Positions 50,722 to 55,122 of a stretch of DNA of 64,000 nucleotides are shown one piece after another. The position numbers and the translations under genes are program-made. Positions within the stretch are counted from its first letter, which is position 1, and every line of letters starts with the position of its first letter. The notes beneath the pieces are model-generated. The model had not been told where the DNA came from. It worked only from the letters and a program-made list of their open reading frames with translations, and made no database searches. This DNA is from Limosilactobacillus caviae (GTDB lineage: Bacteria > Bacillota > Bacilli > Lactobacillales > Lactobacillaceae), in assembly GCF_014635905.1 (NCBI RefSeq), contig NZ_BMDS01000004.1:124001-188000 (forward strand), in the 5' to 3' direction.

Positions 50722-51327
50722 CTAATCCTCTTGTTCAATCTTCTTAATTACTTTTGCGGGCACGCCACCAACGACAACGTTATCTGGAACGTCTTTTGTA
50801 ACGACAGAACCTGCTGCCACGACGACACCATTCCCAATCGTTACTCCGGGACAGATTGTTGAATGACCACCAATCCAAACATCATTTCCAATTGTTACTG
50901 GCTTACCGATGCCGAGACGTTCTTGTCGTCCTTTAGCGGTCAGCGGATGGTTAACGGTATAAATGTCAGTGTTTGGACCAATCCAAACGTTATTACCAAT
51001 CTTAACCGGAGCAATATCCAAAACGGTTAAGTTGTAATTAGCGAGGAAATTATCACCAACATGAATATTCGTCCCATAATCAACGTTTAGTCGGCTGTGA
51101 ACGACTAAGTTCTTTCCTGCTGAGCCAAATATTTCACGAGCTTTTGCTTCCTGTTTTGCTGGTTCATTTTCGGGAATATTATTAAATTCTTGACAGAGGA
51201 CTGCTGAGTTAATCTTTCGACTAGCCACTTCTGGATCGTTGACCTTGTACCATTCACCATCAATTAACTTTTGTAATTCACTTTTTGGCATTTGAATATC
51301 ACTCCTTGTAATTTCTTTTAATTTCAT
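50722..51327 (-). CDS. maa: Maltose O-acetyltransferase-like enzyme under MerR control
   Basis: The 201-aa protein has the Maa cap domain ([13 protein letters not shown] near residue 16) and the hexapeptide beta-helix with catalytic His in YTVNHPLTA (near 125) and [20 protein letters not shown] (about 147-166). AAGGAGTGAT precedes the ATG. It is transcribed from a promoter with a 19-bp spacer, divergently from the merR gene at 51384, so MerR-type activation is likely. The physiological substrate is not known. Confidence 0.87.
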
Positions 51328-51332
51328 GTGCT

Positions 51333-51363
51333 ATCATACAAGTTAAACCATGGTTTAAGTCAA
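51333..51363 (-). promoter_or_regulatory. MerR-type promoter and operator of the acetyltransferase gene
   Basis: On the minus strand: TTGACT (51358-51363), a 19-bp spacer, TATGAT (51333-51338). The perfect 16-bp palindrome TTAAACCATGGTTTAA (51343-51358) lies in the spacer. A 19-bp spacer with a central palindrome is the hallmark of MerR-activated promoters. Confidence 0.82.
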
Positions 51364-51383
51364 CAGGAAAAGGAGAAAAATTT

Positions 51384-51878
51384 ATGCGTTACTCAATTGG
51401 CCAAGTTGCTGAAAAATTAAATTTACCGACTTCAACCCTTCGCTTTTACGATAAAAAGGGTCTGCTACCATTTGTTGACCGTGATGAAGCAGGACGACGA
51501 AGTTTCAAAGAAAATGATCTGAATTTTTTAGAAGTAATCGAATGTATGAAGAAATGTGGAATGTCGATCAGCGAAATCCGCCATTTTATTGATTTATGTA
51601 TGGCAGGCGATGTAACTTTAGATGCACGTTACGATTTGTTAGCTAAAGAAGAGGCAACAGTAATGAAGCAAATTGCTGAGTTGCAAGAACAATTAGACTT
51701 CCTTCACTATAAGATGTGGTATTTTAAAACTGCTCTTGAGGCGGGAACTGAGGAGATTCATATGGTTGATACTGATGAAGGTGAACGGGTAGCTCCTGAT
51801 ATTCAGGAACAATATCAAGAGGTCCTCGCAAAGTGTCATGATATTAAAGAGTTAATTGATTACCAAAATAATAATTGA
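51384..51878 (+). CDS. MerR-family transcriptional regulator
   Basis: The 164-aa protein has the N-terminal winged helix (YSIGQVAEKLNLPTSTLRFY, residues 3-22; then DKKGLLPF), the second wing with EVIECMKKCGMSISEIRHFI, and a long dimerisation helix. There is no cysteine pattern for metal binding in the C-terminus, so it is probably of the drug- or stress-responsive group. AAAAGGAG precedes the ATG. It is divergent from the acetyltransferase gene over a palindromic operator. Confidence 0.9.
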   Translation: MRYSIGQVAEKLNLPTSTLRFYDKKGLLPFVDRDEAGRRSFKENDLNFLEVIECMKKCGMSISEIRHFIDLCMAGDVTLDARYDLLAKEEATVMKQIAELQEQLDFLHYKMWYFKTALEAGTEEIHMVDTDEGERVAPDIQEQYQEVLAKCHDIKELIDYQNNN

Positions 51879-52091
51879 CTTTTAATAATTGTTAGGATGA
51901 AATAATGGTGCTTCAACAAATTTCTGGACTTTAGAAAACGGATCGAAAAGGAGAAATCTCCAGATGCTATTACCGAAGTATGTCGTAGTAAAGGGGCTTG
52001 ATTTGCTAGACGAAAGGCTTAGGCGATTTTAGCGAGGAGTTGAAAGGCGCTATTAATCAAATTAGACAGCAAAACTAAATTATTACATCGC

Positions 52092-52109
52092 ATATTTCCC
52101 AGGAAATAT
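52092..52109. repeat. Copy 1 of a recurring TTTCC-GGAAA palindrome
   Basis: ATATTTCC-CA-GGAAATAT, 8-bp arms. Related copies are at 59070 and 63961. Confidence 0.6.
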
Positions 52110-52120
52110 TAATCTCATAG

Positions 52121-52160
52121 GTCACTAGTTATGGTGAAATTCCAGGCTAGTGGCTTTTAT
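52121..52160 (+). terminator. Terminator-like hairpin before the ABC exporter
   Basis: GTCACTAG (52121-52128) pairs with CTAGTGGC (52147-52154), followed by TTTTA. Confidence 0.55.
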
Positions 52161-52173
52161 CGTTAAACCATCA

Positions 52174-52202
52174 TTGTACTTTTACCCCCCCCATTTTATA
52201 AT
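52174..52202 (+). promoter_or_regulatory. Promoter of the ABC exporter with a run of 8 C's in the spacer
   Basis: TTGTAC (52174-52179), spacer exactly 17 bp, TATAAT (52197-52202). The spacer contains CCCCCCCC (52185-52192). Gain or loss of a C would move the spacing off its optimum. Confidence 0.8.
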
Positions 52203-52206
52203 TAGG

Positions 52207-52223
52207 TTGTAAAACGGTTACAA
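52207..52223. promoter_or_regulatory. Inverted repeat at the ABC exporter transcription start, likely repressor operator
   Basis: TTGTAA-N5-TTACAA, perfect 6-bp arms, placed over the predicted start of transcription and before the ribosome binding site AGGGGTGAT. Confidence 0.65.
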
Positions 52224-52240
52224 AATTAGGGGTGATGAGA

Positions 52241-53122
52241 ATGTTACAGGTTAAAAACCTCAATATCTATTACGGGCGCCATAGAGTTATTAATAATGCA
52301 TCATTTAAAATTCAATCTGGTGAAATTATTGGCCTAATTGGACCTAATGGAGCTGGTAAGTCTACAATAATGAAAACAATTCTAGGATTAACTAAGTTTA
52401 CTGGAACGATTATTTTTAATGGACAAAAGATTACGCCGACTAAACATACAGCGCTTCAACATGTTGGTGCTTTAATTGAAAACCCAGCCTTATATCCTTT
52501 TTTGACGGGCCGTGAGAATTTATCACTTTATACTAATGACCAGACTGAGCTAGAAAAAATAGTTTCAATGCTTGAAATGGATCAATATATTGATCGACGA
52601 GCAGGCGATTATTCGATTGGAATGAAGCAAAAGTTAGGAATTGCATTAGCGCTTTTAAATCATCCCCAATTAGTTATCCTTGATGAGCCAATGAATGGGC
52701 TAGACATTGAAGCAACCATTTTAGTCCGCAAAATTATTCATCGTTATGCAACGGCGGGAACAGCTTTCCTTATTTCAAGTCATGTTTTGAGCGAACTTCA
52801 AAAGGTGATGACCTCAGTAATTATCCTTAACCATCATGAAATTATTATGGATGTTCCAATTGATCAATTTAAGAATACTCCCGTAAGCAAAGTTAAGTTA
52901 AAAGCTACGGACAATTCCGCTGCAAAAGTAATTTTGACTAATAGCGGGCTTGATGTTCATCAGAATGATAACTATTTAATTATTAATATTACTGACGTTG
53001 ATCAAGTACAAAATTTACTTTACCAGCATCAGATCATGTTACGCGAACTAACTCCGGTTCACCAAAATTTTGAACAAGTAGTTGTTAATGTTCTTAAAAA
53101 GAATCGGAGGGATACACAATGA
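52241..53122 (+). CDS. ABC exporter ATP-binding protein (antimicrobial-peptide/lantibiotic type)
   Basis: I choose ATG at 52241 (293 aa), because the GTG at 52232 lies in the ribosome binding site. Walker A GPNGAGKST is near residue 37, the signature YSIGMKQKLGIALALLN near 125-141, and Walker B LVILDEPMNGLD near 145. The C-terminal accessory part is typical of BcrA-like transporters for bacitracin or lantibiotic resistance. It overlaps the first permease by 4 nt. Two permeases follow, the second broken. Confidence 0.88.
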   Translation: MLQVKNLNIYYGRHRVINNASFKIQSGEIIGLIGPNGAGKSTIMKTILGLTKFTGTIIFNGQKITPTKHTALQHVGALIENPALYPFLTGRENLSLYTNDQTELEKIVSMLEMDQYIDRRAGDYSIGMKQKLGIALALLNHPQLVILDEPMNGLDIEATILVRKIIHRYATAGTAFLISSHVLSELQKVMTSVIILNHHEIIMDVPIDQFKNTPVSKVKLKATDNSAAKVILTNSGLDVHQNDNYLIINITDVDQVQNLLYQHQIMLRELTPVHQNFEQVVVNVLKKNRRDTQ

Positions 53123-53877
53123 AAACAAATCTTTCCCACGAATTCTATAAGATGATCCACCAGCGGTCTTCTTGGGTGGCGGTGATTGTCCTTTTCGGCT
53201 TAATGCTATATTCAGCAACGCCGACTGCTTATATTACTAAAAATCTCATTTCTCAAGGCTTTGGCACTGGTCAGTGGGTGATTATTATCATGATTACGTT
53301 AAGCGCTAACTTTATTGCAATGGAATTAAAGAATAATACAATGACCACGTTGCTATACAAGAGTCCCAATCGTTGGGGAGTTTTTGTCGCAAAATTAATT
53401 GTCCTAATCGTATATAGCATTATTCTTTTAATTGCCGGATTTATTTTTACTTTAATCATTAAAGCCGTATTGGTTAATAGTCATTTTGCCTGGCAATCGA
53501 TCTACCACCAGCATACCCTGTTCAATTCCCTATTGCTTAACCTATTAGGTGTTGGAATCTACTTGCTATTTATAATTAGCTTGTCAATGCTCTTAATTTC
53601 ATTATTTAAATCGAGTGCAGTTGTGATTGTAATTGGTTTATTTATTGGCTTTCTCGGTGCTAATATTTCAGGACTTATAATGCAGACATTTCCTGGCATT
53701 AAACCAATAATTGCTTGGAATCCGCTTAATATGATTAATATTATTACCCAATTATCGAATTCGAGCGTAATCCAAAGTTCTGCATTAACGAATAATGAAC
53801 TGATTATTGGCAACTTAATTTATGTAGTTGTTTTCCTCTTAATTGGGATCCTAGTCTTCAGAAAGATTAGATTATAG
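53119..53877 (+). CDS. ABC exporter permease, intact copy
   Basis: A 252-aa ABC-2-type permease with six membrane spans. After the first loop comes FIAMELKNNTMTTLLYKS (about residues 70-87), a conserved cytoplasmic segment of these permeases that pairs with the ATPase. GGAGGG lies in the end of the ATPase gene. The second permease begins 16 nt later and has the same layout (PG-KPIIAWNPLNM here, P-AIIRWNPFNM there). Confidence 0.85.
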   Translation: MKTNLSHEFYKMIHQRSSWVAVIVLFGLMLYSATPTAYITKNLISQGFGTGQWVIIIMITLSANFIAMELKNNTMTTLLYKSPNRWGVFVAKLIVLIVYSIILLIAGFIFTLIIKAVLVNSHFAWQSIYHQHTLFNSLLLNLLGVGIYLLFIISLSMLLISLFKSSAVVIVIGLFIGFLGANISGLIMQTFPGIKPIIAWNPLNMINIITQLSNSSVIQSSALTNNELIIGNLIYVVVFLLIGILVFRKIRL

Positions 53878-53893
53878 GAAAGGAGGGAGACGA

Positions 53894-54664
53894 ATGAGTA
53901 CTGAGCTATATCGAGAATTATATAAACTTAATCATCGGAAATTACCCTGGTTAATGGTTATTGTCATGGTTATCGTGATGATTATTATTGGGCTGGCAAT
54001 GGGACGGACCTATAGTAATTTGTTAGTGATGACCTGCTATGATTCGAGTACTATTATCATGCTATTATTAGTGATTGTTGGTTCGACAATCTTTTCTTTA
54101 TAGTTTCAAAACGGAACGATTATTCCTTTAATATATCGATCACATAGTCGGTCAGTGGTCTTTTTTGCTAAGTTCATTACCTTATTCTTATATAATTTGT
54201 TTTTACACGGGATTGCAATTTTGGTGACGGTTCTTCTTAATATTTTTCCAATTATTAATAATCCGGTCTCATGGACTGCTACCTATCAATATCATCAGCC
54301 ATTAGTTATTAATATGATTGCTAATACTGGTGTGGATTTAATTACTTCCACCTTAATCATTAGTTCAATTTGTTTAACTTCCTGTATAATTAACTCTAAT
54401 ACCGTGGTGATTGCAACTAATGCTTTAATTATTTTTATGGGTAGTGGTTTATCGGCTAATTTATTGTTAGCTCATGTGGGACCTAGTGCGATTATTCGAT
54501 GGAATCCATTTAATATGTTGAATTTAACTACCCAGTATTATAATTATGCGACTTATCATCAATCATCATTACTTTCTAATCAACAGCTGTTGTGGGGAAC
54601 TATCATCTATACTATTTTATTTACGCTATTCGGTTATTGGATTTTTCAGCATAAAAAACTATAA
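53894..54664 (+). pseudogene. Second ABC exporter permease broken by an in-frame TAG
   Basis: Two frames (53894-54103 and 54155-54664) are in the same phase, and the codons between them continue the protein, so one TAG at 54101-54103 is the only lesion. It falls in STIFSL-stop-FQNGTIIPLIYRS. The intact paralog reads FIAMELKNNTMTTLLYKS at this place, so a Glu codon (GAG to TAG) is the likely original. Full length would be 256 aa, six spans. AAAGGAGG precedes the ATG. Without it the exporter would be a homodimer or inactive. Confidence 0.85.
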
Positions 54665-54831
54665 ACAAGATCAATCTAGAATCCAAGAAACGTTATCGCA
54701 AAATGAATACGAGCCTACATATAATTTGTAATCAGGGGCGAAAACTAAAAATAGAGCCTTACAGGACGGAAAATAATGTTAACTGATGATAAAAATTATA
54801 GTTTTAACAAAGCGGTAAGGAGAACACGCCA

Positions 54832-55122
54832 ATGAAACTAAGGACACTTCACGATACCATTAAGAAGAAATACGAAAATGGTGATTATAACCACCAAAAT
54901 AATTTAGGAGAAAACCTAAAATCAAATAAGGAAAAGCAGTATGAGCAGATGCTCGCCAGCACAATGAGTGTTACTTCGCTATTTTTAATTCTTCTTTGTA
55001 CAGAAATTCCGAACCGTTACGATTGGCTGGAGGATATTTTGATCTTTTTGACGATTGCCAATGGAATTGCTTGTATTTTTTCTGCATCAAAGTTAATTCA
55101 ACTGAAGAAGTCACCAAAATAG
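54832..55122 (+). CDS. Small two-span membrane protein, paralog of the gene at 46258
   Basis: A 96-aa protein, about 75% identical by eye to the one at 46258-46554: LHDTIKKKYENGDY, then KSNKEKQYEQMLASTMSV, then two membrane spans and a short basic tail. The differences are mostly conservative, and a small indel lies near residue 22, which suggests a real, selected gene. AAGGAGAAC precedes the ATG. Function unknown. The GyrI-like gene follows after 77 nt. Confidence 0.72.
   Translation: MKLRTLHDTIKKKYENGDYNHQNNLGENLKSNKEKQYEQMLASTMSVTSLFLILLCTEIPNRYDWLEDILIFLTIANGIACIFSASKLIQLKKSPK

Follow-up and report, generated by a model that had tools for sequence, protein, structure and literature searches.

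A homopolymeric tract in the promoter of an ABC exporter operon of Limosilactobacillus as a candidate contingency locus

Background

The window analysed here is a 64-kb stretch of the genome of Limosilactobacillus caviae (G000 contig C4:124001-188000; genome of 2.31 Mb). It contains an operon for a putative ABC exporter, preceded by a predicted promoter with a run of eight C's. The genes and features of the locus are as follows, in window coordinates.

51384..51878, plus strand: MerR-family regulator gene (PF13411, E 7.6e-18), the next gene upstream of the exporter
52174..52179, plus strand: TTGTAC, candidate weak -35 element (3/6 versus the consensus)
52185..52192, plus strand: C8 homopolymer
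52197..52202, plus strand: TATAAT, -10 element
52207..52223, plus strand: palindrome TTGTAAAACGGTTACAA, which includes GTAAAACGGTTACA, a 9/11 match to the CcpA cre consensus (a putative site only)
52228..52232, plus strand: AGGGG, which lies 8 nt from the ATG at 52241 and is probably the ribosome-binding site (direct reading)
52241..53122, plus strand: ABC exporter ATPase, LanF/CprA-like (PF00005, E 3.3e-32; TIGR03740, E 6.5e-54, below its cut-off)
53119..53877, plus strand: first permease, LanE-like, ABC2_membrane_4 (PF12730, E 3.8e-11); frame open, no stops
53894..54664, plus strand: second permease, LanG-like; in-frame TAG at 54101-54103 (codon 70), the sole stop inside the match

An earlier note on this DNA proposed that the promoter makes the exporter phase-variable. 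Direct reading bears out much of its description: the C8 homopolymer lies in the promoter spacer, 4 nt from a consensus TATAAT, and exactly 17 nt separate TTGTAC from TATAAT. The -35 element, which had been called near-perfect, matches TTGACA at only three of six positions, and a promoter scan that required at least 4/6 for each hexamer does not have this site in its list. As a mononucleotide run, C8 thus separates the -35 region from the -10 box, in a promoter that is itself predicted from the sequence.

Methods

The operon was counted in 50 genomes of the genus Limosilactobacillus; the genomes taken to carry it have at least 41% identity in the first permease. Two genomes with weak permease matches, G015 (28%) and G025 (31%), were excluded before counting; the region upstream of the G015 ATPase has no run over four. 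The promoters of the orthologues were anchored on the -10 box by eye; an automatic alignment of the ten failed to bring all the -10 boxes into register. As controls, we used 326 intergenic upstream regions from 635 kb sampled from five of the orthologue genomes, and the stretch scored in each control was the last 120 nt minus the 18 nt closest to the start.

Results

The ATPase scores 183 bits against TIGR03740, a family of lantibiotic-protection ATPases and its best NCBIfam match, and falls short of the curated family cut-off of 309.75. Its Q-loop position is occupied by Glu (VGALIENP), and VGALIE is found in all ten orthologues of the genus. Most ABC ATPases have glutamine at the Q-loop; Glu at this position, the 'E-loop', is a feature of LanFEG/CprABC-type transporters. 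The gene order ATPase-permease-permease is shared by this genome and eight other orthologues; in the remaining one, G045, a contig break follows the ATPase, and the permeases stand at the beginning of a different contig. The second permease of orthologue G048 carries a TAA, and no stop was reported in the second permease of eight other orthologues. Through its own interrupted second permease, the exporter may be inactive in the present genome, and any switching may be without phenotype here, because this permease is interrupted.

LanFEG genes typically lie beside lantibiotic biosynthesis genes, and Cpr genes beside a dedicated two-component system. Judged by eye from the sequence, neither lantibiotic biosynthesis genes nor a two-component system was recognised among the neighbouring ORFs listed. 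According to PMC5786555, LanFEG/CprABC transporters have one ATPase and two permeases per operon, and the present operon has the same composition. The differences from these transporters are the low family score, the homopolymer in the promoter, and perhaps the neighbourhood. The ATPase also resembles the Staphylococcus phenol-soluble-modulin exporter PmtABCD, with matches to NF047568 (E 8.5e-41) and to PDB 6xjh (E 2.8e-29), which we take to be PmtCD; however, the NF047568 score (140.3 of 375) is below the family cut-off, and there is one ATPase gene here. By analogy, the operon resembles LanFEG/CprABC exporters and probably handles antimicrobial peptides.

The earlier note found no regulator gene adjacent to the exporter, but the MerR-family gene is the next gene upstream and ends 362 nt before the exporter ATG. 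No evidence tying this gene to the exporter promoter was found in our analysis, and no MerR-like gene was seen beside the other orthologues among the neighbouring ORFs listed. The flanking genes are common to the close pair G007 and G009, partly common to G045 and G046, and otherwise different; therefore, the operon and its promoter form a conserved unit. A mobile origin of positions 51880-54700 was rejected, as the plasmid and phage collections held no near (megablast) match to this segment; relatives of the ATPase at 41-45% identity occur on three plasmids.

A search of Rfam gave nothing up to E 1 within 51200-55000, and a conserved RNA element was therefore rejected. A nucleotide search with 51880-52400 gave coding matches and short fragments at 52073-52114, and among the matches listed the promoter was aligned only by the window's own sequence. 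The fragments at 52073-52114, before the promoter, correspond to a stretch of about 22-40 nt with copies of 83-100% identity in other genomes of the same genus (G007, G009, G014, and G035 among the matches listed). These copies sit away from this operon, as a dispersed repeat remnant.

The palindrome just downstream of the -10 box had been described as a perfect TTGTAA-N5-TTACAA repeat and a probable repressor site. The repeat is exact (TTGTAAAACGGTTACAA), and it is the sole exact TTGTAA-N5-TTACAA in the genome; the repressor site is unsupported, since such palindromes are ordinary. Perfect 6+5+6 palindromes occur 22 times in the window and in 24 of the 326 control upstream regions, and palindromes with 6-bp arms and a loop of 3-8 are found in 100 of the 326. 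The palindrome was rejected as a notable operator on the basis of the two control frequencies.

The operon was found in 10 of the 50 genomes. The promoters, written from the run to the -10 box, are listed below.

G000 (this genome): C8-ATTT-TATAAT
G041: C7-ATTG-TATAAT
G048: C7-ATA-TAGAAT
G023: C5-ACTGCTG-TATAAT
G007: G9-TAAAAT
G009: G8-TAAAAT
G045: A7-10 nt-TATAAT
G046: A6-10 nt-TATAAT
G003: G6-TATACT (-10 assignment less certain)
G044: G5-10 nt-TAGAAT (-10 assignment less certain)

A G/C run just 5' of the -10 box has a length of 7-9 in five of the ten orthologues and of 5-6 in three, and the other two have A7 and A6. The distance between the run and the -10 box ranges from 0 to 10 nt. By eye, the TAGGTTG directly 3' of TATAAT in the window resembles the sequence after the -10 box in seven orthologues, and a TAATTAAGNTGA-like stretch, counted from the last -10 bases, is similar in eight of the ten promoters. 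Because of this similarity after the -10 box, the promoters look homologous, although the base of the run changes. A change of base with the position kept fits selection for a length-variable tract.

The length of the run differs between relatives (G9/G8, A7/A6, and C8/C7/C7/C5). In the sister species G007 and G009, the roughly 100 nt ahead of the gene align with a single gap, which is the difference between G9 and G8. The sister species G045 and G046 have A7 and A6, respectively, after a common CTAAAC; the aligner was gapless there, and no gap was drawn at the A run because the sequence further upstream is unrelated. The best -35 element at gaps of 15-19 nt reaches 2-4/6 in any orthologue; G003 has a 5/6 match, but at 14 nt. 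In the tree of the ATPases, from which one outgroup sequence (L023) was removed because of its shortness, species with C-type and G-type promoters are poorly separated, and the number of origins of the tract is thus uncertain.

In the control upstream regions, a G/C run of at least 7 is present in 1 of 326 and one of at least 5 in 5 of 326, and A/T runs of at least 6 and at least 7 are present in 105 and 37, respectively. As A/T runs match this background, the A-type promoters of G045 and G046 add little weight. None of 104 other relatives among the matches listed has a G/C run of at least 7 within 120 nt, and the longest in the stretch scored, the same as in the controls, is 5; these are 78 + 26 loci that include paralogues, at least one of them from Limosilactobacillus (L093), and some of their genomes were probably drawn from both collections. 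One relative (L036) has a C7 at about 119-125 nt upstream, just beyond the 120 nt counted.

With five of the ten orthologues carrying a G/C run of at least 7, Fisher's test gives P = 4.3e-8 versus the upstream controls and 1.7e-6 versus the relatives; when the sister species are collapsed (4/8), P is 6.8e-7, and when only two tract origins are granted among eight lineages (2/8), it is 0.0015, all under an assumption of independence that shared descent weakens. The pattern C7-N0-9-TATAAT occurs at five places in the 50 genomes of the genus, two of which are this promoter, and the reversed pattern has two matches. For G7-N0-9-TATAAT, a search that is blind to G007 and G009 (their box is TAAAAT) gave one match, inside a coding gene, and 14 matches to the reversed pattern in the 50 genomes.

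Relatives from other genera of the Lactobacillaceae (L026, L028, L030, L032, L228, and L230-L238) have a different common upstream sequence, which by eye is GTTGCGCGAA... TTGCTTGTATGCAACTAGCAAA-like. This suggests a conventional conserved promoter or operator in those genera where Limosilactobacillus has a homopolymer.

The genome contains 14 G/C runs of at least 7, five of at least 8, and three of 9; the numbers predicted by a second-order base model are near 22.8, 3.9, and 0.7, respectively. There is no clear excess over the model, and C8 was rejected as a genome-wide outlier. The run itself is thus not evidence; what stands out is where it lies, and that G/C runs recur at that position in the orthologues.

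The sites where the G/C runs of the genome fall are suggestive. Three runs lie near gene starts: a G9 at L137:1501-1509 (G000 C10), a G7 at L131:1501-1507 (G000 C4), and a G9 at L125:1501-1509 (G000 C1). All three genes have surface-protein signal sequences that read as KxYKxGKxW-like, and in each the frame is interrupted at the run or directly after it. The product of L137 has mucin-binding-type domains (PF17966 and PF17965), and L125 and L131 have no Pfam match. These three genes are candidate translational contingency loci. Two more runs fall deeper within genes, those for a YSIRK-signal protein (L134) and for an amidase (L135). At L140:1501-1509 (G000 C13), a C9 followed by T8 lies at the 5' end of a gene for a family-2 glycosyltransferase (PF00535), the frame of which appears to be broken near the run.

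Two G7 runs are apparently at the position of a ribosome-binding site, one before an alpha/beta-hydrolase gene (PF00561; L128:1501-1507) and one, on the minus strand, before a gene without a Pfam match (L132:1501-1507). In two genomes of the same genus, G038 (L149:1501-1513) and G042 (L151:1501-1513), a G7 on the minus strand directly precedes the start of a gene whose sequence resembles the competence gene coiA. At L144:1501-1507 (G000 C16), a G7 is directly followed by TATACT, with inverted repeats AATAGCCCCTATA / TATAGGGGCTATT on its flanks; this run is possibly the end of a mobile element.

Discussion

We favour, at a probability of roughly 0.55, the reading of a promoter-type contingency locus in which C8, as the mutable part, tunes the three-gene ABC exporter. 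The run would gain or lose single bases during replication via slipped-strand mispairing. A change in its length would shift the -10 box, in both distance and helical phase, with respect to an upstream contact, which may be the weak -35 element or an activator; alternatively, the run may have some other effect on the spacer. With the best -35 elements at only 2-4/6 for gaps of 15-19 nt, an activator is possible, and so is a different effect of the run. A clonal population would then contain cells that differ in the transcription of the exporter, and the role of the tract would be bet-hedging of an exporter whose substrates, to judge from the resemblance to LanFEG/CprABC, may be antimicrobial peptides. 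The presence in the genome of a mutS gene free of stops speaks against very high rates of slippage.

For the genus, the idea of the earlier note probably holds, on grounds that were not available to it. What speaks for a phase-variable promoter is that G/C runs recur across species, that the base of the run changes, and that sister species differ by one unit; two of the supports originally offered, the near-perfect -35 element and the repressor site, are wrong, and the second permease is stopped in this genome.

Several other readings of the tract have to be weighed. The stop in the second permease, together with the TAA in the same gene of G048, raises a serious possibility, to which we give somewhat less than an even chance, that the locus is decaying in this genome and that the tract is a leftover in front of an exporter no longer able to assemble. 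The frames of the ATPase and the first permease are open, however, and a stop in the second permease is unreported in the eight other orthologues, so that the decay would be local; it is compatible with a contingency locus in the genus. The run may instead be a fixed structural or binding element, such as stiff poly-dG/dC or a regulator site that works in either orientation, and not one kept for its instability. That several species have the run directly 5' of the -10 box would agree with this, and the weak -35 elements suggest reliance on another factor; the C5, G5, and G6 runs, which are short for frequent slippage, are also found at this place. A binding site would be unusual, however, with its bases changed and its distance to the -10 box varying over 10 nt, and the sister species differ in the length of the run. 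We regard such an element as unlikely.

A regulatory role for the palindrome was also considered, namely that it is a CcpA cre-like operator, that the operon is mainly under carbon regulation, and that the tract is secondary. Matches of at least 9/11 to TGWAANCGNTNWCA lie near seven of the ten orthologous promoters, and the genome has a ccpA gene that scores above its family cut-off; against this, equally high cre scores are reached in 66 of the 326 control upstream regions, and the position of the cre-like sites relative to the -10 box differs among the orthologues. We consider this reading improbable and, as so many controls reach the same score, do not claim a cre site, although the matches are suggestive across the orthologues. 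Quite improbable, in our judgement, is a neutral origin, in which slippage homopolymers arise without meaning in a weakly constrained spacer. In its favour, chance alone should give a genome a few runs of 8, most sequences are tolerated in a spacer, the A-type promoters are no different from the background, and C5 and G5 could be noise. The single control region with a G/C run of at least 7, and the lack of any of at least 6 within 120 nt in the 104 relatives listed, stand against it; since G/C runs are rare in both sets, neutral growth is not the usual route to such a tract.

The contingency-locus reading can be extended to the whole genus, and we do so tentatively, with confidence that stays below even. 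Selection may keep a slippage-prone run at the promoter of this stand-alone exporter, putatively of antimicrobial peptides, while leaving its base free (C or G, perhaps A), and so pre-adapt some cells of each population to bacteriocin attack. The tract may then be part of a wider set of poly-G/C switches in this genome that includes a glycosyltransferase and several surface proteins, one of them mucus-binding.

Simple-repeat phase variation has been studied best in Gram-negative mucosal pathogens and mycoplasmas. In Neisseria, control of transcription by promoter poly-C (fetA) and poly-G (porA) tracts is established (PMC5320596), as is control by the poly-C promoter tract of opc (PMC3447861). 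By analogy with fetA, porA, and opc, the present tract is a C or G homopolymer in a promoter, the length of which would set transcription. The runs here are 5-9 long, compared with C10-14 in fetA, C11-12 in opc, and G6-8 in gonococcal porA in the passages cited. For opc, 89 colonies of the mutS+ parent were reported to show no change in the tract (PMC3447861). The Neisseria tracts control an outer-membrane protein, whereas the present one precedes an inner-membrane exporter in a Gram-positive commensal. Passages of PMC2831843 treat runs that lie inside coding genes.

In a literature search judged by titles and the beginnings of abstracts, with most subscription papers outside its scope, no report of a promoter-tract switch in a lactobacillus was found among the papers listed, and by the same parts of the records none of the literature joining 'Limosilactobacillus' and 'phase variation' was about such a switch. 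The mechanism of the proposed switch is known already; its host, a commensal lactobacillus, and its target, an exporter, are probably new. If the proposed switch is true, contingency loci would extend to bet-hedging against the antimicrobial peptides that act between gut bacteria.
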